A stretch of DNA of 64,000 bases, taken from the NCBI RefSeq assembly GCF_001748285.1, contig NZ_BDGT01000007.1:62001-126000 (forward strand), given 5' to 3'. The notes under the pieces were generated by a model that saw nothing but the letters and a program-made list of their open reading frames with translations, ran no database searches and was not told the origin of the DNA. The stretch is from Thermogemmatispora onikobensis. GTDB taxonomy: Bacteria > Chloroflexota > Ktedonobacteria > Ktedonobacterales > Ktedonobacteraceae. The position numbers and the translations under genes were made by a program. Below are positions 5,175 through 30,322 of the stretch, piece after piece (positions within the stretch are counted from its first letter, which is position 1; every line of letters begins with the position of its first letter).

Positions 5175-7199
5175 CTAGCAGGTCCAGGTGACCTGCGCCG
5201 AGGTGCCATCCTGGGTGCGAAAGAGCAGCAGGCCCTGACGCGGGCAGGAGGCGTAGATGTAGATCGTGACTTGCTGTTGACTGCCAGGCTCTAGCCAGCC
5301 TTGCTGTGGCGCGAAGAAGGCGCGGACGTTTGAGCTGCTGGCCGACCACTGGGTGGTATCGCTGGCTGCGGAGGAGAGCGAGAGCGTGACCTGGCAGCGG
5401 AAGGTGAAGCTCTCATGGCTGCAGCTGTTTGGTCCGTTGAGCTGGGCTGGACTGACGGCCAGCAGCGGAGGGGTGGGCGTAGGGGTGGGTGTGGGCGTGG
5501 GACGCGGGGTCGGGCTGGGCGTAGGGCTGGGTGTGGGCGTGGGTGTCGCTGTAGGTGAGGGTGAAGGTGTCGGACTGGGCAGGGGCGACGGCGTTGAGGT
5601 CACCGTGACAATGGCGGTGCTTGTGGAGATCGTGGGAGTCTGTTGGGCTGTTTGGCGCCACAGGCCGGCTGAGAGCAGTGGCAGGAGCAGGATGATGAGC
5701 AGGCTCAGGATGACCAGGAGGCTGACCGCCCCCATGAGAATCCAGCGTCCCTGACTGGCCTCGCGCCAATAGCTCACGCCCTGACTACCGCGAAGAGCGG
5801 CTGGGCTGCCGGATGCTGGCCTGACGCTCTCGCTCACTAACGTAGGCTGCTCGTTCCAGAGAAGAGCGGGCGTGGCTGAGGCTTCTACCTCCTCCAGCTC
5901 GCTGGCCTGCTGATGCAGCTCTCCTGCTTGTTCCAGGGCGCTTCCGCTCGCGTCTGGAGCTGGAGACGGGCTTGAGGCAGGCGATGAGCTGGCAGGTGCC
6001 TCTCCCTCGCCTGGGGGGAAGGCTGCCCCCTGGCTCTGGTTGGGCAGGGCGAGCTGTGGTATGGTCTCCTGCTCGTAGATTGAGATCTCTCTCTCTGTCA
6101 ATGCATTGCTGGTGAAAATCCCTGCCTGCCTTTGAGTACTGCTGGCCTCGCTGCTGGCGCTACTTGCTGCCGGAGCCTCGGGTATGCCAGGCTGAGTCCC
6201 TCCGGGGGCGATGGGCTGGTCGAGATTGGGGCTGGAACCCTCGGCCTCGGGGACACGGCTGGCCTCGCTGGGGCGGAACAGTTCGCCGCTCGCCGGTGAG
6301 AACTCGAGGGGGGATGGTCTGGCTCGCCCCGCTGATAGCAAACGTGTCTCGCTGGCTGGTGCGGGTAGGCTAGGGGCAGGAGTGGTGCCAGCTGCCGGGA
6401 AGAGCGCTGCCATGAACTCCTTGACGGTGGGGAAGCGTTGGTTGCTGTCTTTGGACAGGGCTTGCAGAAGCACCTCATCTACCCGGCGCGGCAGCAGCAA
6501 GTTGAGCTGCGTCGGAGCTACCGGCTGCTCATGGGTATGCTGCCGGGCTAACGTTGCAAAATCGGTGCCGCTGAAAGGAGGTCGCCCAGTCAGCAGCTCA
6601 TAGGCGAGGCAGGCCAGAGCATACTGATCGCTGGCGCGGCTCGCCATCCCTTCGAACTGCTCAGGGGCCATGTAAGGCCAACTGCCAGGGCGCAGCTGCG
6701 GCTCACCGTCGGTGGCGGTGGCCCAGCTGAAGTCGGTGAGCCACAGCTCTCCTTTGGTATTGAAGAGGATGTTCTCCGGCTTCAGGTTGCCATGCATCAC
6801 GTTGAAGTGATGGGCGTAAGCCAGAGCCTCAGCGACCTGCTGCAATAAGGTCCCCGCCTCGGAGAGGCTCAGCGGGGTCATCCCCTGGCGTGCCAGCCGC
6901 TGGCGCAGCGAGCCACGCAGCGCGTATTCGCTCATCAAATAGGCTTCGTCCTGGTCGACCCCGCTCTCTAGCGGAGGAAGCAGATGCGGATGGCGCAGCA
7001 TCCTCAGCAGGCGCACTTCGCGGAAATACTGCTCGCGATTGCGAGGAAAAGGTGGGTGGAAGAACTTGATCACCACTGTGTGGCCGGGGGCTGTCAGATG
7101 CTGAGCCAGATAGGCGCTACTTGCTGGTCGATTGCCGAGGCCGGCAATGATCCGATAGTGGCCAATCACTCTATCGATATAGCGATTGCGCTCGCGCAT
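5175..7199 (-). CDS. Membrane-anchored Ser/Thr kinase-like protein, probable pseudokinase
   Basis: A 674-residue protein of the bacterial Hanks-type kinase (PknB-like) group. Kinase-like domain about 10-270, low-complexity Pro/Ala/Ser-rich juxtamembrane region, one membrane helix (about 487-511), a Pro/Thr linker (538-578) and a BACON-like extracellular domain with Cys pairs. The ATP-anchoring Lys is kept (VVIKFF, K45), as are the DFG Asp (DFS, D156) and the APE motif, but the catalytic loop reads HGNLKPEN: the HRD Asp is Asn138. The Gly-rich loop is also poor (GLGNRPASS). The family normally phosphorylates Ser/Thr; here a binding or allosteric role is as likely. ATG at 7199 follows GGAGG. 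It is divergent from the BACON-repeat gene at 7619 and has its own promoter. Confidence 0.88.
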   Translation of the reverse strand: MRERNRYIDRVIGHYRIIAGLGNRPASSAYLAQHLTAPGHTVVIKFFHPPFPRNREQYFREVRLLRMLRHPHLLPPLESGVDQDEAYLMSEYALRGSLRQRLARQGMTPLSLSEAGTLLQQVAEALAYAHHFNVMHGNLKPENILFNTKGELWLTDFSWATATDGEPQLRPGSWPYMAPEQFEGMASRASDQYALACLAYELLTGRPPFSGTDFATLARQHTHEQPVAPTQLNLLLPRRVDEVLLQALSKDSNQRFPTVKEFMAALFPAAGTTPAPSLPAPASETRLLSAGRARPSPLEFSPASGELFRPSEASRVPEAEGSSPNLDQPIAPGGTQPGIPEAPAASSASSEASSTQRQAGIFTSNALTEREISIYEQETIPQLALPNQSQGAAFPPGEGEAPASSSPASSPSPAPDASGSALEQAGELHQQASELEEVEASATPALLWNEQPTLVSESVRPASGSPAALRGSQGVSYWREASQGRWILMGAVSLLVILSLLIILLLPLLSAGLWRQTAQQTPTISTSTAIVTVTSTPSPLPSPTPSPSPTATPTPTPSPTPSPTPRPTPTPTPTPTPPLLAVSPAQLNGPNSCSHESFTFRCQVTLSLSSAASDTTQWSASSSNVRAFFAPQQGWLEPGSQQQVTIYIYASCPRQGLLLFRTQDGTSAQVTWTC
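5466..5588 (-). repeat. Pro/Thr-codon repeat encoding an extracellular linker
   Basis: Degenerate tandem GGGTGT/GGGCGT-like units on the plus strand encode alternating Pro-Thr/Ser-Pro residues on the minus strand (residues 538-578 of the kinase-like protein). This is a coding low-complexity tract, prone to length change, not a CRISPR array. Confidence 0.8.
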
Positions 7200-22532: not shown

Positions 22533-22657
22533 TTGTGTTGTGCTGGTGGTGGTGGTAGGGTTTGCTCCTGGCTGAGTCTCGTCTTTGGCTCCCTCTCGTG
22601 GGCGCTGGCGGACAGGCTAGCGTATTGTACTGGCAAGCCGATCTGCTCTGGCCCACT

Positions 22658-23866
22658 TCACTGGGGCGTCTCGTTGCGAGCTTGCTGCAGGTGCTCCTGC
22701 AGCTCCTGGCGGAAGGCGCGCACGATGGCCAGGTCGCCGTAGCCGGCGCGCTCTATCTCGCTGAGCAGCTCAGAGCCTTTGGTCAGCCGGTGGGGCGATT
22801 GCCAGCCGGCGACTGCCTGCAGGAAGGCACGAGCCTCTTCGATGCAGGCCTCGACTTCGCGCAGGCGTAGAAGCGCCTGCGCCCGGTAAAGGTGAAGGCG
22901 GTAATCAAGCCAGAGGTTCCTGTCAAGAGAGATCTGACGGCGTAGTTCTTCGTACCTCTCTAAGACTTTCTGGGGCTGGTTGGTGTAGAGGTAGCCGCGA
23001 GAGCGCAGGAGGAAGATGCCGCTGAGTTTGTGGAAAACAAAGTCGCTCCCATTGCCGTAAGCTCCTTTGAGAGGCTCGGCCAGGGCAATAGCCTGTTCAA
23101 TAGTGCGTTCGAAGCGCAGGGCGTCGCCTGCGATGGCGTACATCTGGCTGAGATAAGCGCTGGTGAAGGCCGCCAGCGGTTTGCTGATCTTGAGCGAGAG
23201 ATCACGCGCTTCCTCCAGGGCACTGATGGCCTCAGTGAAGCGTCCGATGCGTTTGAGTTCGACGCCGAGCTTTTGGAGGGCATGGGCGGTCAAGACTGGG
23301 TCTCTCACCTGCCGCGCCGCAGTCAGCATCTCCTGAAAAGTTCCTCTGGCACGGTCGTAGCGGCGATGCTCGTAGTGCATGAGTCCGACAAGGCTCTGGT
23401 ACTGGATGGCCAGGATCTGCAGGCGACGCTCCTGGCGCAAGGGTGGCGGCAGCTCGCTGCGGCAGGTCTCCAGAAAGCGACCGAGGCGCTGCACCTGCTG
23501 CTCTATTTCCGGGAGAGGGGCCAACCGCCTCATGGCCAGGGTCTGCCTGAGTAGCGCTTCAGCCACTGCCAGGGTTTCCTCGAAGAGATAGTTTTTGCTG
23601 GGGAGAGCAGCCTGGGGATTGAAGGGATCGTAGGAGGACAGCCCGAATTCCCAGGGAGGAATCTCTAGCAACTCACAAAGACGGCGCAGGGTGCCCGGGT
23701 CGGCGATCCGCTTCTTGCCATATTCAATGGCCTGGACATAACGCCAGTCAACACCCGCTCCTCCCCGGGAACGCGGCCAGCGCTCCGCCAGTTCTTGCTG
23801 CGTCAGGCCGCGCCGCTCGCGATATTTTCGGATGATTTTCCCATGATGATAGCCACCCGCGCTCAT
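22658..23866 (-). CDS. XRE-family regulator with TPR repeats
   Basis: A 402-residue cytoplasmic protein. Residues about 6-70 form an XRE helix-turn-helix (HGKIIRKYRERRGLTQQELA, then YVQAIEYGKKRIADPGTLRRL), followed by a helical region with TPR-like repeats to the C-terminus, for example YDRARGTFQEMLTAA and GRFTEAISALEEARDLS. The domain order matches peptide-sensing RRNPP-type regulators (PlcR, NprR) in general outline, although ligand binding cannot be inferred from order alone. ATG at 23866 follows AGGAGG with 5-base spacing. I looked for a small secreted-peptide gene on the minus strand directly downstream and found no ATG there. It is divergent from a 71-residue gene, sharing a 220-base upstream region. 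Confidence 0.82.
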   Translation of the reverse strand: MSAGGYHHGKIIRKYRERRGLTQQELAERWPRSRGGAGVDWRYVQAIEYGKKRIADPGTLRRLCELLEIPPWEFGLSSYDPFNPQAALPSKNYLFEETLAVAEALLRQTLAMRRLAPLPEIEQQVQRLGRFLETCRSELPPPLRQERRLQILAIQYQSLVGLMHYEHRRYDRARGTFQEMLTAARQVRDPVLTAHALQKLGVELKRIGRFTEAISALEEARDLSLKISKPLAAFTSAYLSQMYAIAGDALRFERTIEQAIALAEPLKGAYGNGSDFVFHKLSGIFLLRSRGYLYTNQPQKVLERYEELRRQISLDRNLWLDYRLHLYRAQALLRLREVEACIEEARAFLQAVAGWQSPHRLTKGSELLSEIERAGYGDLAIVRAFRQELQEHLQQARNETPQ

Positions 23867-24086
23867 AGGAGCCTCCTTTCTTGTGCTCGCTTGACCAGAT
23901 AGCAGGTTCGCACTTCCCCAGGGGCCTTCTCCGTACTAACTAGTCTGTTTGTATGCAAAGATGTAAAGGGATTCTATGCTTCTGAATAGAAGCCATCGCA
24001 TGTCCCTATGAGGATTGTAGCATAGTTGGAGACGATAAAAAAGTTACGCTTTCTACGTGTCATCTTGTGTAACAGGAGGCAAAAAT

Positions 24087-24302
24087 ATGTGCGAGAGCGA
24101 GATCGCGCGACTAAGAAAGCGCCTGGAGGACGAGTATGAGGCCGCTCGCTGGGGCCTGACAGGACTGGCAGCAGGTGCCGCTCAGCATCGGTTTATTACG
24201 GCTCGCATTCGCAATATGGAGCGCTGCCATAAACGCCTGGCTCGCCTGGTTGGGGAGGAGCGTGCGACTGCCATCGCTCTGGAGGTCTGGCGCGCTAGAT
24301 AG
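24087..24302 (+). CDS. Small conserved-looking helical protein, unknown function
   Basis: A 71-residue basic protein, mostly predicted helix, beginning MCESEIARLRKRLEDEYEAA. It has two Cys and many Arg residues and no signal peptide. AGGAGGCAAAAAT directly before the ATG at 24087 is a strong ribosome-binding site and fixes the start; the frame extends upstream to 24057 without support. It is divergent from the XRE-TPR gene and might be one of its targets, which is inference from position only. I do not recognise the family. Confidence 0.6.
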   Translation: MCESEIARLRKRLEDEYEAARWGLTGLAAGAAQHRFITARIRNMERCHKRLARLVGEERATAIALEVWRAR

Positions 24303-24548
24303 CTGACGCAAGGTTGTCCCTCCGCGACGTGCTCTTATTGTTGTTCTTTTCACTCATTCTCGTATTTCATAACCATTGCCAGCGCTGGCGACAAGCGGCA
24401 AACGCAGGGGATCACCTGCCTCTCACGGCTCACAATAGGTGCACACCACAAGCCGGGCGCTAGCGGTGATCCCCACCTGTTCCCCTGCATCGTCTTCGCC
24501 ATCCTGCGTTATCTAGGCTCCCTCCAGGGCCGTCTAGGACAGGCGAGC

Positions 24549-25039
24549 GTGCGTGTGACCCGTTTCGAGGTTGGCGACAAAGTCAGTGATTTTACGCTGA
24601 GCGATGTGGCTGGTCAAGCAACCTCTCTAGGGCAATTGCTCCAGCGTGGGCGCAAGGTCCTCTTACTATTGCTCTCAGCCTCCTGCACTACCTGTCGGGC
24701 TATTGTGGCTCAGCTCGATGAGCTGGCCAGCCGTCCTGGAGGGGTGCCGGCGCTGGGGTGGATGGTTGTCGCTGTGATTTATGGCCAGCCGGCTGAGGTG
24801 CGGCTGATGGCCGAGACGTTGCGAGAGCGCGAAGGCATAGTGGTACTTGTTGATAGTGAGGCCCTGGTGGCGGGAGCTATCTGGTGGCCTCCATTCCCAT
24901 TGGCCTGGCATTAGATGAGAATGGGCGCGTACTGGATCAGTCGCGCAATCCTGGACCGAACTGGCTGTACTTGACCTTGCAGGTCGCACCGCCTGATCAC
25001 TCGCTCCTTCCACGCATACCGATAGCGCAGATCCAATGA
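24549..25039 (+). pseudogene. MauD/TlpA-like thioredoxin-fold protein, frameshifted
   Basis: The first frame (GTG start at 24549) encodes a redoxin start with FEVGDKVSDFTLSDVAGQ and the active-site pair in SASCTTCRAI, then reads into a stop at 24912-24914. A second frame from about 24870 continues the expected fold with YLVASIPIGLALDENGRVL and ends at 25037-25039. The SIP-I-G-x-x-x-D-x-x-G-x-V pattern is the usual cis-Pro and hairpin part of MauD/TlpA proteins, so one frameshift near 24865-24890 splits a protein of about 163 residues. MauD-type proteins manage disulfide exchange during maturation of Cys-rich substrates. The first gene of a four-gene run with a Cys-rich Tat protein and a MauE-like protein. 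A sequencing error cannot be excluded. Confidence 0.72.
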
Positions 25040-25079
25040 ACAGGGAGAGAGATAAGACCAGGCGAAAGGAGACCGTGAT

Positions 25080-25481
25080 ATGTCTGAAGAGCGGCAAGCG
25101 CCTCGCGAGAGGCGGCGGCTCAATGACCGCCTGATCGAGGGACTGATGCGGCAGTCTCGGCGGGGCTTTTTAGGGGGGCTGTCTCGTCTTGGGCTTCTTC
25201 TCGTAGGCACCCTCCTTGGTCTTGAGCTTGAGTGGCTGCAACCGGCATCTGCCGCCGTAGCACTGGCCTATGCTCAGCCTGGCGCGGTAACGCCAGATCT
25301 CGGCTGTCCCGAATGTACAGGTATCTGTGACCCGTGCTTCTCCGCCTGTTGCTGTCCTTGCGATACGGGCTGTGTCTGTACCTGTCTGGCGGGTTGCGCT
25401 GCCTGCATTCCAGTCGCTTTTCGCTCGCATCTTCTGTGGATTCTTGGCTATATTCCGAACTGTGTATGCGAGGCCTGCTAG
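25080..25481 (+). CDS. Tat-exported small protein with 16 clustered cysteines
   Basis: A 133-residue precursor. The N-terminus holds a canonical twin-arginine motif (SRRGFLGG, about residues 26-33) and a hydrophobic stretch ending near PASAAVALAYA, so it should be exported folded. The mature part is packed with Cys: 16 in about 60 residues, including ACCCPCDTGCVCTC, and ends VCEAC. It resembles the methylamine dehydrogenase light chain only in having a Tat signal, many Cys and MauD/MauE-like neighbours; I do not see the rest of that family's sequence. It may carry multiple disulfides or a metal cluster. ATG at 25080 follows AAGGAGA with 8-base spacing. Role unknown; the flanking redox genes suggest they fold it. 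Confidence 0.72.
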   Translation: MSEERQAPRERRRLNDRLIEGLMRQSRRGFLGGLSRLGLLLVGTLLGLELEWLQPASAAVALAYAQPGAVTPDLGCPECTGICDPCFSACCCPCDTGCVCTCLAGCAACIPVAFRSHLLWILGYIPNCVCEAC

Positions 25482-25570
25482 ACAGAGACGCTGTCACGTA
25501 ACACGCCCCTCTTCAATCAAAAAGAGAAGGCTAGTGACGGACACCCAGCGCGCAGGCCCCGTCGCCCGGC

Positions 25571-25595
25571 CTGGCTCACCCTGTGGCTGAGCCAG
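25571..25595 (+). other. 8-bp hairpin between the Cys-rich gene and its downstream neighbour
   Basis: CTGGCTCA (25571-25578) and TGAGCCAG (25588-25595) pair around a 9-nt loop without a following T-run. It could stabilise or partly terminate the upstream message. Confidence 0.45.
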
Positions 25596-25653
25596 TTGGC
25601 AGGCCGCAGGCTGGTAAGGCTCACGAGCGAGTTATGTGAAAGGAGAAGGCCGT

Positions 25654-25950
25654 ATGTCCAATCAGCAACAGCCCGAGCCTGAGTCGCAGAGACCACGACC
25701 GACCGCCTATCTTACGCGCGGCTACGACCTCTTTCGCGGCCTGGAAGGGAAACCGATCATTGGCAGCACCCCTAATCAGCGTTATCTGGGGCGCATTGTG
25801 CTTGAGGTTTGGGAGCCGCTCCGAGCAGGCAAGCATCCCGAGGAGATGGCCTATATTATTAGTCCGGCCCGCGGAGTCTCCAATGACGAGTTGTTGCTTC
25901 GCGCAACGCGGGCTATGAATACGGAGCTGGAGCGCCGTCGCAAGAAGTGA
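25654..25950 (+). CDS. Small hypothetical protein in the Mau-like locus
   Basis: A 98-residue soluble protein beginning MSNQQQPEPESQ, with a disordered acidic start, a central part TRGYDLFRGLEGKPIIG and a basic end (ELERRRKK). No signal peptide, no Cys and no motif I recognise. AAAGGAGAAGG before the ATG at 25654 supports the start. It lies between the Cys-rich Tat gene and the MauE-like gene in the same direction, so it may belong to that unit, perhaps as an accessory cytoplasmic factor. That link is positional only. Confidence 0.6.
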   Translation: MSNQQQPEPESQRPRPTAYLTRGYDLFRGLEGKPIIGSTPNQRYLGRIVLEVWEPLRAGKHPEEMAYIISPARGVSNDELLLRATRAMNTELERRRKK

Positions 25951-26035
25951 AGTCAAGAAGTGAAGTAAGGAAGAGGGTTCAAGCCTTCTCTTCTGCCTGC
26001 CGCTAGCGCTGACAGTCCTGGCAAGGTGAGCAGCT

Positions 26036-26632
26036 ATGAGCCAGGGGATGAGCACAGTCCTGGCTAGGGCTGAGCTGCGTCTCTTTTGGCGCCTGGTCAT
26101 TGGTGTCCTGCTCCTACTGACCGGCTCCCAGAAGCTGAGAGATCTGTCTGCCTTTCGCGAAGGCCTCCGGGCCTATCAGGTACTGCCTGCCTGGCTGGAG
26201 ACCCGGAAATCCTTAATCGGGCTATTGGCGCTCACCATTGCTCTGGCAGAGTGCTGCCTGGCGCTGCTATTGCTCGCGGGTGTCTGGAGCATGCCAGTAT
26301 CCTGCAGCGCTGCTGGTCTGCTGCTGCTCTTCAGTCCAATCTCTTCCGTGGACGCCGTGATCTTAGCTGCCATTGTGGCGGTCCTCTAGGAGATCGGCCT
26401 CTTTCCTGGTCAGCAATCGCACGCAATTTATTCCTGGTACTCTTTTCTTCTCTTCCTGTACCTCACGCCTGCTGATCCCTTTAGCCTGGATAGACTCCTG
26501 GCAGGCGAGGCTCTGGCAGAGGGCCAGCTCTGGCAGGACGGCGCCCTTCCCATCGCTCTACTGGTCCTGAGCCTGGTAATCATTAGCAGCCTGGTTAGCG
26601 CCACACGGACCACGCTCAAGCGGCTGCGCTGA
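26036..26632 (+). pseudogene. MauE/DoxX-like membrane protein with two compensating frameshifts
   Basis: The first frame encodes a typical MauE start: RLFWRLVIGVLLLLTGSQKL, then two more hydrophobic segments, ending at a TAG (26387-26389). The diagnostic MauE cytoplasmic motif appears in another frame (about 26335-26450): NLFRGRRDLSCHCGGPLG followed by LSWSAIARNLFLV. The original frame then resumes with GALPIALLVLSLVIISSLV and stops at 26630-26632. The two shifts cancel, so an intact ancestor would be about 198 residues, the normal family length. MauE proteins pass electrons or disulfides across the membrane to MauD-like partners. With the broken MauD-like gene, this suggests decay of the module, or clustered base-calling errors. 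No slippery heptamer was seen at the first shift. Confidence 0.75.
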
Positions 26633-26784
26633 CCTACTTGACTGCCTGCCTGATGGACGCAGCAGCCGCGTATCACGCTAGCCGGAAGCTCTCTGGTCTC
26701 ACTGGCGGCCTGGTCCAACTTTCTCCTGCTCTTTCTACTCTTCTTCTCCCTGATGCTTATAACAAGCAAGCACTGCCATCGGGC

Positions 26785-26815
26785 TTGAAGCCGGTCAGCG
26801 GGAAGAGACTATAAT
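26785..26815 (+). promoter_or_regulatory. Possible promoter for the dienelactone hydrolase
   Basis: A perfect TATAAT (26810-26815) is preceded by TTGAAG (26785-26790) at 19 bases, a longer spacer than ideal. It lies 45 bases before the gene at 26860. Confidence 0.45.
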
Positions 26816-26859
26816 TTGAGCAGGCAAAGAAGTACACGGCCACGCAAAGGAGACCCCAG

Positions 26860-27582
26860 ATGGCTCAACCTGTGACGCAGATGGTCACATTCCCCTCGGA
26901 AGGGAGGCAGCTCGCTGCATTTCTGGCCTTGCCGACCGCCGGCAGCGAGCAAAGCGAGGAAGGGAAGGGACCCTATCCCGGTGTCGTGGTGATCCACGAG
27001 ATCTATGGTCTCAACGACAACATCAAAGACATCGCCCTGCGTCTGGCTGCCGAGGGCTATGCGGCCCTGGCCGTCGACCTCTTCTCGACCGGGAACCGCA
27101 CCGTCTGCATGTTTCGTATGATGAGCGGTCTCGTCTTCAACTCGCTCAACCATCGAGGAGTGCGTGATCTGCGCCATGCCCTTGATTTCCTGGCCCAGCA
27201 ACCGGCGGTTGACAGTGAGCGGCTTGGGGCCATTGGCTTTTGCATGGGGGGGAGTCTGGCCATTGCCTGGGCCTGCGCTGACAGACGTCTGCGGGCCATT
27301 GCTCCTTTCTATGGCATGAATCCGCGGCCTCTGGAAGCTGTCAAGCGCGCCTGTCCGGTGGTTGGCTCCTATCCCGAGCAAGACTTCACTGCCGGGGCTG
27401 GTCGCAAGCTTGATGCTGTCCTGGACACCTACCAGATTCCGCACGACATCAAAATTTATCCGGGGGCCAGACACTCCTTCTTTAACGATCGTGGCCCCAA
27501 CTATCACCCCGAAGCGGCGCAGGACTCCTGGCAGCGTGTGCTAGCCTTCTTCCGTGAGCATGTTCTGGCGCCGGGGGCCTGA
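26860..27582 (+). CDS. Dienelactone hydrolase family protein
   Basis: A 240-residue cytoplasmic alpha/beta hydrolase of the dienelactone hydrolase type. The Cys nucleophile sits in GFCMGG (C128), with Asp in YPEQD (D175), His in ARHSF (H205) and the family Glu in VIHEIYG (E47). Members open lactone rings such as dienelactones from chloroaromatics, but many bacterial paralogues act on other esters. ATG at 26860 is preceded by AAAGGAGA. It is followed 99 bases later, on the same strand, by an acyl-CoA dehydrogenase with its own ribosome-binding site; the two may be co-transcribed. No ring-cleavage genes are nearby, so the true substrate is open. Confidence 0.92.
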   Translation: MAQPVTQMVTFPSEGRQLAAFLALPTAGSEQSEEGKGPYPGVVVIHEIYGLNDNIKDIALRLAAEGYAALAVDLFSTGNRTVCMFRMMSGLVFNSLNHRGVRDLRHALDFLAQQPAVDSERLGAIGFCMGGSLAIAWACADRRLRAIAPFYGMNPRPLEAVKRACPVVGSYPEQDFTAGAGRKLDAVLDTYQIPHDIKIYPGARHSFFNDRGPNYHPEAAQDSWQRVLAFFREHVLAPGA

Positions 27583-27681
27583 ACGCTCTAACGGCGAACG
27601 GCTGATCAGACCTGGATCGAAGCGTGCGTCTGCGGACTGGATAGGTCTGTTTCTGTCATCCCCAACGAAGGAGAGAAAGCG

Positions 27682-28899
27682 ATGGATTTCACCTACTCTG
27701 AGCGAGTCAATGAGCTACGGCAGCGACTCCTTGACTTCATGGAGCGCTCTATTTATCCCAATCAAGAGACCTATCGAAGGCAGATAGAGGCCTCGGGTAA
27801 TCCCCATCACCATGCCGAGATCGTCGATGAACTCAAGCAGAAGGCGAAGGCCGAGGGTCTCTGGAACCTGTTCATGACCGATCCGCGCTACGGGCCGGGC
27901 CTGAGCAACCTCGAATATGCCCCGCTGGCCGAGATCATGGGGCGCGTCAGTTGGGCCTCGGAAGTCTTCAACTGTGCGGCGCCTGACACTGGCAACATGG
28001 AGATCCTGGCGGAATTCGGCACGCCGGAGCAGAAGGAGCAATGGCTCAAACCGCTGCTAGAGGGAGAGATTCGCTCGGCCTTTGCCATGACCGAGCCGGA
28101 CGTTGCCAGCTCGGACGCCACCAACATCCAATTGACCATTGAGCGCCAGGGAGACGAGTATGTCCTCAATGGGCGCAAATGGTGGATCTCGGGGGCGGCG
28201 CGCCCGCGCTGCAAGATCTTCATTGTCATGGGCAAGACCGATCCTCATCATCCCGACCGTCACCGTCAGCAGAGCATGATCCTGGTGCCGCGCGACACGC
28301 CGGGAGTGACCATTGTGCGCAGCCTGCCGGTGATGGGCTATCTCGATAACGAGAGCCATTGCGAGGTCCGTTTTGAGAACGTGCGTGTGCCAGCGAGCAA
28401 TCTCCTGGGCGAGGAGGGCAGCGGCTTTGCCATCGCTCAGGCGCGCCTGGGGCCGGGGCGCATCCATCACTGTATGCGGGCCATCGGAGCGGCCCAGTAT
28501 GCCCTAGAGTTGATGTGTCGCCGGGCCCAGGCGCGGGTTGCCTTTGGCAAGCCGCTGGCGGAGCAGGGCGTCATTCAAGAATGGATCGCCCAGTCGCACC
28601 TGGAGATTGAGCAGGCGCGCCTGCTGACGCTCAAGGCGGCCTGGATGATGGATACCCTGGGCAAGAAAGCGGCCCAGAAAGAGATCGCCATGATCAAAAT
28701 TGTCGCTCCTGCTGTCATGACCAACGTCGTCAATCGCGCGATGCAGGTTTTTGGCGCGGCGGGGCTGTGCGATGACTTCCCGCTGGCCTCCATGTGGGCC
28801 CACGGGCGTACCCTGCATATTGTCGACGGTCCCGATGAGGTCCACAAGCGCTCACTGGCGCGCCTGCTCCTGCGCGAACAGCGTCTTCCGCAGGACTAG
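27682..28899 (+). CDS. Acyl-CoA dehydrogenase family protein
   Basis: A 405-residue flavoprotein that would oxidise an acyl-CoA to the 2-enoyl-CoA, passing electrons to ETF. Visible family blocks include the FAD-contact segment [15 protein letters not shown], the [10 protein letters not shown] strand, the C-terminal helical bundle with ARVAFGKPL and the end motif [14 protein letters not shown] preceding the [12 protein letters not shown] tail. The last features fit the ACAD10/11-like branch, which often handles long-chain or hydroxylated acyl groups. ATG at 27682 follows AAGGAGAGAAAG. Its downstream neighbour is convergent. Together with the acyl-CoA ligase at 60 kb this points to fatty-acid catabolism, but it is not a dedicated operon. 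Confidence 0.93.
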
Positions 28900-28972
28900 T
28901 TGAGCTGACCGGAGGCGCCCGGAGCCGCTAGCGACACTCCTGCTGGTGCTGCGCCTGGTGCCTCCACCGATC

Positions 28973-30322
28973 TCAGCTGGCCTGGCCACTTTGGCGGGCG
29001 GCACTGGCTGCGGAGACCGAGGGCGGGCTGGCCAGGCCGACGCTAAGCAGATCCTGTAGCTCGTTCCAGGCGTAGGCCAGGGGGGCCTGACGATAGCCGG
29101 GTTCGCCGCGTCCCACCTGGATGGAGAGGCTCCCGATGGTGGCCTTCCAGGTACGCCGCCCAGTCCGGCGCACGAGCTGGCGGCGTGCGGCATACTTGAG
29201 ATAGCGGCGAGCGAGCCGGCGCACACTGCGAGCTTTGAGCAGGCGCCGGTCGACCTGTCTGCCTGCTCGCTTCAGCTGCTGCGCCTGGCGGTTAATTGCC
29301 ACGACCAGCTCATCCAGGGTAAAGGAGGGGTGGCCTTCCTTGCTGCGCTGAACGAGGAAGCCGCTGGCGAGCTGGGTGCAGGTGAAGTGCGCGCTCAAGA
29401 GCCAGGCACGGCGCAGCCGCTCGTGCAGCTCGCGCTGCGGCAGCTGGGGGGCACGCTCGATGCTTGGGGCCAGGCTGACGAAGACCCGCTTGCGGCGGCG
29501 CACGGTCATAAAATCATACATGATAGCAATGGGCACCACGCAGGTTTCGGGCCTGCCCCCACGTAGAAGGCGCTGAGGGGCCGCAGTAATTGGACCAACG
29601 CGGCCATCAGGTGTGAGCTGACCTTCCGGCGCTCCCCAGAGCGAGCCACCGCGGGCGAGCCAGGCTGAAAGAACGTTGAGCTGTTGCCTCAGTTCCTCCA
29701 GAACCAGGTTCTTGACACGTAGGTAGACCGCCGGCTGGAAGATTTCAGCTCCGCTGAGACGGCGCAAGATGGTTCGATAATGCCAGGAAAGCAGCCGCGA
29801 TAAGGGGACGCTGGCAAGACGCTGCGCCTGCTCGCCGGCGCTGTGCGCCCATTGCTGGAGGAAGGCCGGGCTGAGAATCTCGCTCGCCGGACGGTCTCCC
29901 TCGCTCTGAAGGGCGTTGCGCAGCCAGAGTTCGATCGGACGCAAGTGGATGTTTTCGATCGGACGCAGGCCGATGAAGCGCAGGAGGCTCCCCAGCGGGA
30001 GCAGCCCCAGCAGGCGCGAGAACCAGCCTGGCTCTGGAAGAATGCGGCTGAGAAAGCACGGCGCGAAGGCGTCGCTGCGAATGGCAAAGAGGACGTCTCG
30101 GGTGATGGCTCGCCAACTCCAGCGCGCCAGGATGGTAGGAACCTCGATCATCGGGTCAACGTCGCGTTTGTGGGCCATTGCAAAGTAGACTGGTCGCCCA
30201 CGCCCAGGGAGGTGCTCCAGGCCGTGAAATTCGATCTTGTGAAAGAGCCGGACACCTACCCAGAGGATGCCTGCGATCAGAACCCGGCTGCAGGCGGCCA
30301 GCACTGCTGCAAGATGTCTCAT
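28973..30322 (-). CDS. PlsC-like phospholipid/glycerol acyltransferase
   Basis: A 449-residue protein with an N-terminal hydrophobic segment and an acyltransferase domain. The H(x4)D motif is present (AHKRDVD, H51 and D56), and the later motif GAPEGQLTPDG corresponds to the acyl-acceptor binding EGTR-type block. Such enzymes transfer acyl groups to glycerol-3-phosphate or lysophosphatidate at the inner membrane. At about twice the size of typical PlsC, it carries a long basic C-terminal extension (many Arg, about 330-420) of unknown role and an insertion of about 100 residues between the motifs. ATG at 30322 follows AAGGAG. Downstream is the convergent acyl-CoA dehydrogenase. Confidence 0.78.
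   Translation of the reverse strand: MRHLAAVLAACSRVLIAGILWVGVRLFHKIEFHGLEHLPGRGRPVYFAMAHKRDVDPMIEVPTILARWSWRAITRDVLFAIRSDAFAPCFLSRILPEPGWFSRLLGLLPLGSLLRFIGLRPIENIHLRPIELWLRNALQSEGDRPASEILSPAFLQQWAHSAGEQAQRLASVPLSRLLSWHYRTILRRLSGAEIFQPAVYLRVKNLVLEELRQQLNVLSAWLARGGSLWGAPEGQLTPDGRVGPITAAPQRLLRGGRPETCVVPIAIMYDFMTVRRRKRVFVSLAPSIERAPQLPQRELHERLRRAWLLSAHFTCTQLASGFLVQRSKEGHPSFTLDELVVAINRQAQQLKRAGRQVDRRLLKARSVRRLARRYLKYAARRQLVRRTGRRTWKATIGSLSIQVGRGEPGYRQAPLAYAWNELQDLLSVGLASPPSVSAASAARQSGQAS

Follow-up and report, generated by a model that had tools for sequence, protein, structure and literature searches.

A decaying copy of a MauE/MauD-type gene cassette with a Tat-type cysteine-rich protein in Thermogemmatispora onikobensis

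MauE and MauD are thought to form or isomerise the disulfides of MauA, the Cys-rich light chain of methylamine dehydrogenase (MADH). In Paracoccus denitrificans (L142) the genes are arranged in the order mauB-mauE-mauD-mauA. Halocin C8 and related bacteriocins are Tat-exported products that carry a Tat leader and a C-terminal Cys-rich peptide, and the immunity function of halocin C8 is part of its precursor. A set of Streptomyces candidate RiPP families (decRiPPter) contains mauE, with or without mauD, beside a precursor with at least eight Cys and no other mau genes (PMC7794033). In that study a role of MauE/MauD in precursor modification was suggested, with nothing further (PMC7794033).

The window analyzed here is a stretch of 64,000 nucleotides from the draft genome of Thermogemmatispora onikobensis (5.56 Mb in 112 contigs). 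The list of open reading frames and their translations places four reading frames between positions 24549 and 26632 (Table 1), with a helix-turn-helix/TPR gene on one side and a dienelactone-hydrolase-like gene on the other. No tRNA, tmRNA or Rfam features were found within the window. The original prediction, made from the letters of the DNA, had described this region as a redox module in which a MauD-like thioredoxin, a small protein and a MauE-like membrane protein surround a Tat-exported protein with 16 Cys. All four components were confirmed (thioredoxin fold, Tat-type 16-Cys protein, small protein, MauE), but both redox genes are disrupted, which that description had missed.

Table 1. 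Features of the cassette locus (positions in the window)
Feature	Position	Strand	Evidence
Junction of the 348-bp deletion	24485..24488		blastn collinearity vs L006
mauD-like (TlpA/thioredoxin-fold) gene remnant, CTTC motif	24485..25039	+	AhpC-TSA E 3e-7
Tat-type (SRRGFLGG) Cys-rich protein, 133 aa, 16 Cys, intact	25080..25481	+	sequence; homologues
Cys-rich domain of the Tat-type protein, holding all 16 Cys	25305..25478	+	alignment
Small soluble partner, 98 aa from ATG at 25654, intact, family-less	25654..25950	+	profile search
mauE gene, disrupted	26036..26632	+	PF07291 40.8 bits

The reference for the decay was the intact cassette of HOG59, an isolate of a sister Thermogemmatispora and the closest named relative (contig L006, identical to G040:C347). 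Collinearity in blastn was observed between window positions 22535-24488 and L006 5103-7052, and between window positions 24485-29000 and L006 7401-11896. The intervening 348 bp (L006 7053-7400), which held the mauD upstream region and promoter, the start codon, the first codons and the N-terminal membrane helix, are absent from the window; the N-terminus of the L006 MauD is MTGLWLLVFLVQWLLLIVLYCIVFAILRYL. The longest remaining mauD-like open frame (24549-24914) matches AhpC-TSA/Redoxin (E 3e-7); alignment with L006 traces its stop at 24914 to the loss of one nucleotide after 24872. A programmed frameshift was rejected, as mauD lacks its promoter and start as well and the frame of the sister copy is uninterrupted. 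In mauE, comparison with L006 revealed (i) a 13-nt deletion between 26336 and 26337 and (ii) a 1-nt insertion near 26442. The mauE frame, previously drawn to 26632, actually ends at a TAG codon (26387-26389) located before the CxCxG motif, which is therefore lost. The fragment scores 40.8 bits with PF07291, compared to 79.7 bits for the intact MauE of L006 (curated cut-off 27). With mauD and mauE disrupted, the locus is a relic in this genome, a decaying copy of a four-gene cassette in which the Cys-rich and small genes alone are still open. A 10-bp inverted repeat (GGGGATCACC/GGTGATCCCC) is present at 24407-24416 and 24465-24474, just upstream of the deletion junction.

In the Cys-rich protein, the twin-arginine motif SRRGFLGG is followed by a hydrophobic segment, and the family member from L132 scores 14.4 bits with TIGR01409 (cut-off 16.7). 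No Pfam or NCBIfam family was matched. The window protein is 92% identical to the HOG59 copy (G040/L006), while the mature parts of the HOG59 and G264 proteins share 61% identity. A search with the single sequence, run against genomes of the class and genome contigs, recovered the sister species alone; weak matches in L004 and L005 were rejected as chance ORFs. Plasmids yielded no match, and a profile search of the PDB gave nothing beyond a chance spider-toxin-like spacing (E 0.19). Conservation of the Cys spacing had been proposed as a check on the module. The spacing proved to be poorly conserved, with ∼5 invariant Cys columns in the family alignment. The mature parts contain between 9 and 16 Cys, sometimes an odd number, and due to this variability a single disulfide pattern is not established.

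The distribution of the cassette was analyzed with profiles of the Cys-rich and small proteins, run separately on a sample of 400 genomes of one phylum, Chloroflexota. The Cys family was found in nine of these genomes (E<=1e-4), and in all nine a small gene was located nearby. Six genomes share the order MauE-MauD-Cys-small with gaps of -4 to 163 bp, and three of them (G331, G264 and G070) fall outside the class Ktedonobacteria; the others are G020, G021 and G011. The order in Thermogemmatispora is MauD-Cys-small-MauE. The co-occurrence of the Cys-rich and small genes in nine genomes of several families, six with one four-gene order, indicates a cluster beyond chance. Thus, the concern that the Cys-rich gene might be absent from other such loci was not borne out. 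In the intact loci compared, CxCxG is present in all MauE proteins and CxxC in all MauD proteins, and LuxR-like regulator genes adjoin several modules. In one of the nine, G022 (L085 145-4024), the Cys gene is reduced to a fragment, which adjoins an intact small gene, another MauE and another Tat-type protein with 7 Cys; judging from this arrangement, it looks like a module in which the client (and MauE) was replaced by different ones.

The cassette resembles the mau operon in that it combines a MauE of family PF07291, a MauD-like protein with a thioredoxin fold and a Tat-type Cys-rich third gene. Its order, MauE-MauD-Cys, matches mauE-mauD-mauA, which places the Cys-rich protein in the mauA slot. 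In contrast to the mau operon, it contains no mauB, mauG or amicyanin gene and no MauA homolog, it has an extra small gene, and its MauD-like protein lies far below the MauD equivalog cut-off (for the intact L006 protein, the best NCBIfam model was TIGR02661 with 37.9 bits, cut-off 188.6). No heavy-chain-like gene (mauB) was seen in any of the cassettes. The leaders of the Cys family align with those of MauA (hhalign E 1.3e-7, columns 4-42; leaders only), a likeness that may reflect shared Tat constraints alone, while the mature Cys domain gave no alignment with MauA (hhalign E 0.86). A MauA HMM gave negative scores for all Cys-family members and positive ones (40-53 bits) for two light-chain-like proteins of Thermomicrobium. 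The light-chain family PF02975 reached its cut-off in none of the 47 Ktedonobacteria genomes. In place of the two Trp residues that form TTQ in MauA, the Cys family has one nearly conserved Trp, which is missing at that place in G070. The original prediction had named identification of the Cys-rich gene as a methylamine dehydrogenase subunit as a refuting result; the PF02975 and mature-domain comparisons did not bear this out. By these criteria the Cys-rich protein is not MauA, and the same helper pair appears to serve a different client from the same slot.

The small protein matched no Pfam or NCBIfam family and has no evident membrane segment; modeled alone with AlphaFold, it gave a pLDDT of 52, and the model was set aside. 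Its family was detected by profile search in 13 of the 400 Chloroflexota genomes (E<=1e-15), including four (G039, G016, G034 and G036) where no Cys-family match occurs in the same genome. Its distribution marks it as a conserved fourth member of the cassette, not an accidental neighbor. Both small genes of a doubled module in G020 (L132 12499-13071 and 14822-15388) encode two tandem small domains each. G034 carries two near-identical copies of a region with an orphan small gene near contig ends (L176 4943-5338; L177 about 5200-5463); one of the two orphan genes is frameshifted, and the neighbors resemble transposition proteins.

Comparison of the same chromosomal site within the genus revealed different stages of loss. 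HOG59 has the complete cassette, whose copy in the window is partly decayed. G039 retains no more than the small gene and a remnant of mauE; Cys and mauD genes are missing from the site, and a Cys match is absent from the rest of that genome as well. A 151-bp mauE remnant persists in G038 and nothing similar was found at the site in G042. Between the window and HOG59, dN/dS was 0.15 for the Cys gene, 0.12 for the small gene, 0.10 for mauD and 0.32 for mauE, the highest value in the locus, with 0.07 for the flanking gene. The small genes of the window and G039 gave a dN/dS of 0.023, and on the G039 branch, part of which may predate the loss, 12 silent changes and one coding change were counted. 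The small gene of G039 appears to be under strong purifying selection. Silent divergence was much lower in the cassette (0.16-0.27) than in the flanking gene (0.66), a hint of exchange of the cassette between lineages.

From these data we infer, with moderate confidence in the reading as a whole, that the cassette is dedicated to the disulfide folding of a peptide exported by Tat. The Cys-rich protein would carry a long twin-arginine leader and leave the cytoplasm via Tat. On the outer side of the membrane, its disulfides would then be formed or isomerised by the membrane redox protein MauE, through CxCxG, and by MauD, a thioredoxin fold with CxxC that is anchored in the membrane; by analogy with the mau system, the pair probably carries out such chemistry on a Cys-rich client that Tat has exported. 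Regarding the earlier idea that the module folds or metallates its client, disulfide formation fits better, and nothing in the data points to metallation. The product would be a small secreted disulfide-rich peptide, for which an antagonistic or signaling function seems likelier than an enzymatic one; that it is antagonistic we consider a serious possibility, though somewhat short of an even chance. The small cytosolic protein would work with the peptide. An antagonism system in which the small protein is protective is suggested by the patchy presence of the cassette, its repeated loss, the client replacement and the retention of the small gene; we propose the small protein tentatively, as a candidate for self-protection. 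The main alternative role is that of a leader-binding chaperone, and it could equally be a regulator. The lack of an evident membrane segment speaks against immunity, being unusual if the peptide is membrane-active. The cassette itself contains no exporter or processing protease gene, which counts against the reading as a whole, as does the varying Cys number of the mature parts. Since the redox genes of the window are broken, the proposed mechanism cannot run in this genome as written.

Alternatively, the Cys-rich protein might be a metal-binding or redox carrier, metallothionein- or ferredoxin-like, loaded before export, with MauD/MauE tuning its thiols and the small protein acting as a cytosolic loading chaperone. 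Up to 16 Cys in ∼60 residues would suit such a carrier, as would a soluble, chaperone-sized protein encoded next to it in the modules, and Tat typically exports folded, cofactor-loaded proteins. We nevertheless regard this as rather unlikely: no metal-binding family was matched, the Cys spacing is poorly kept, the relatives of MauD/MauE are disulfide-type proteins, and small genes persist without the Cys gene. A structural role, as a disulfide cross-linked peptide of the surface or of spores and aerial hyphae, with MauE/MauD as folding helpers and the small protein as a regulator, would agree with the formation of hyphae and spores by Ktedonobacteria and with the LuxR-like genes beside several modules. 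It is an unlikely role for a gene set that occurs in 9 of 400 genomes, has been lost repeatedly within one genus and whose copies diverge strongly in sequence.

Descent from the MADH light chain, in shrunken form and still making or carrying a Trp-derived cofactor, would agree with the position after mauE-mauD, the similar leader and the nearly conserved Trp. The failure of the mature domains to align, the negative MauA HMM scores of all members, the single recurring Trp that G070 lacks at that place and the sub-cut-off PF02975 scores across the class make it very improbable. As for the disruptions in the window, they could be sequencing or assembly errors that the living strain does not share, given that the assembly is a draft and that single-base indels can arise in this way. 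This is very unlikely, as deletions of 348 and 13 bp are atypical of base-call errors, sister genomes (G039, G038 and G042) have each reached a different, independent stage of loss at this site, and dN/dS within the locus is highest for mauE.

The cassette was also compared with other MauE loci. MauE matches were found in 38 of the 47 Ktedonobacteria genomes, in 30 of them above the cut-off. Around MauE in 40 loci of the class, Cys-rich small ORFs were enriched on the MauE strand (13/83 vs 3/167, Fisher p 6e-5). This test used called ORFs and replaced a loose Tat-plus-Cys scan around MauE, which was noisy (14 near, 6 far). The clients at MauE loci vary, comprising several Tat types, one knottin-like type and non-Tat types with ABC exporters. 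Four loci (L075, L072, L081 and L064) combine MauE and TlpA with an ABC exporter, and most of them also encode a Cys-rich precursor whose leader is not of the Tat type; in L075 there is additionally a fusion of an S26 signal peptidase with a thioredoxin-like domain. By analogy, the peptidase-thioredoxin fusion and ABC exporters of these sibling clusters would correspond to those of export clusters for modified peptides. These clusters share with the cassette MauE and a TlpA-like protein beside small Cys-rich precursors, but have non-Tat leaders, an ABC exporter, in one case a signal peptidase, and no such small partner.

The MauE loci of the class match the suggestion, already raised for Streptomyces, that MauE/MauD serve Cys-rich precursors (PMC7794033). 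The view of the locus as a system separate from mau is supported in that MauD/MauE relatives accompany a client that is not a MADH subunit. In gene content the cassette is like the Streptomyces families (mauE with or without mauD, a precursor with at least eight Cys, no other mau genes), while it differs from them in its occurrence in Chloroflexota, its Tat-type leader and its conserved soluble small partner (PMC7794033). So far, no description appears to exist of MauE and MauD combined with an exported Cys-packed protein and a soluble small partner in the absence of a dehydrogenase. The literature on MauE was also searched in combination with halocin C8, Ktedonobacter or Tat, without a relevant result. 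The cassette resembles halocin C8 in its Tat-type leader and C-terminal Cys-rich peptide, whereas its candidate protector is a separate small protein. No NCBIfam model was matched by the Cys-rich protein.

MauE/MauD have so far been studied on one difficult client. The client of the cassette has ∼75 mature residues and would provide a tractable system to ask how MauE/MauD act on disulfides once Tat has exported the client, whether by making, shuffling or protecting them. Were the products antagonistic, they would make up a multi-disulfide peptide family of thermophilic and soil Chloroflexota, for which the small protein is the candidate soluble protector. A broader and decidedly speculative proposal, which we consider doubtful, is that MauE-MauD serves in general as the folding unit of antagonistic peptides that are rich in disulfides and exported by Tat, that a soluble protector accompanies each of them, and that the MADH assembly genes are one specialized branch of this unit.

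Two further types of loci were noted. In other Thermogemmatispora, G042 (L067 4928-9913) and G038 (L062), MauE is encoded together with an ABC ATPase, a TlpA-like protein, a large membrane protein and, beside it, a Tat-type protein whose C-terminal domain holds 12 Cys in a layout that recalls halocin C8. The Thermomicrobium roseum plasmid NC_011961.1 encodes the two light-chain-like proteins (L149 3851-4069 and 8901-9353), one of them unannotated, which keep Trp-containing stretches like those of MauA. MauE, a MauD-like protein and several ∼400-aa paralogs resembling propeller heavy chains are encoded around them, and the locus is apparently a methylamine-dehydrogenase-like system in a thermophile.
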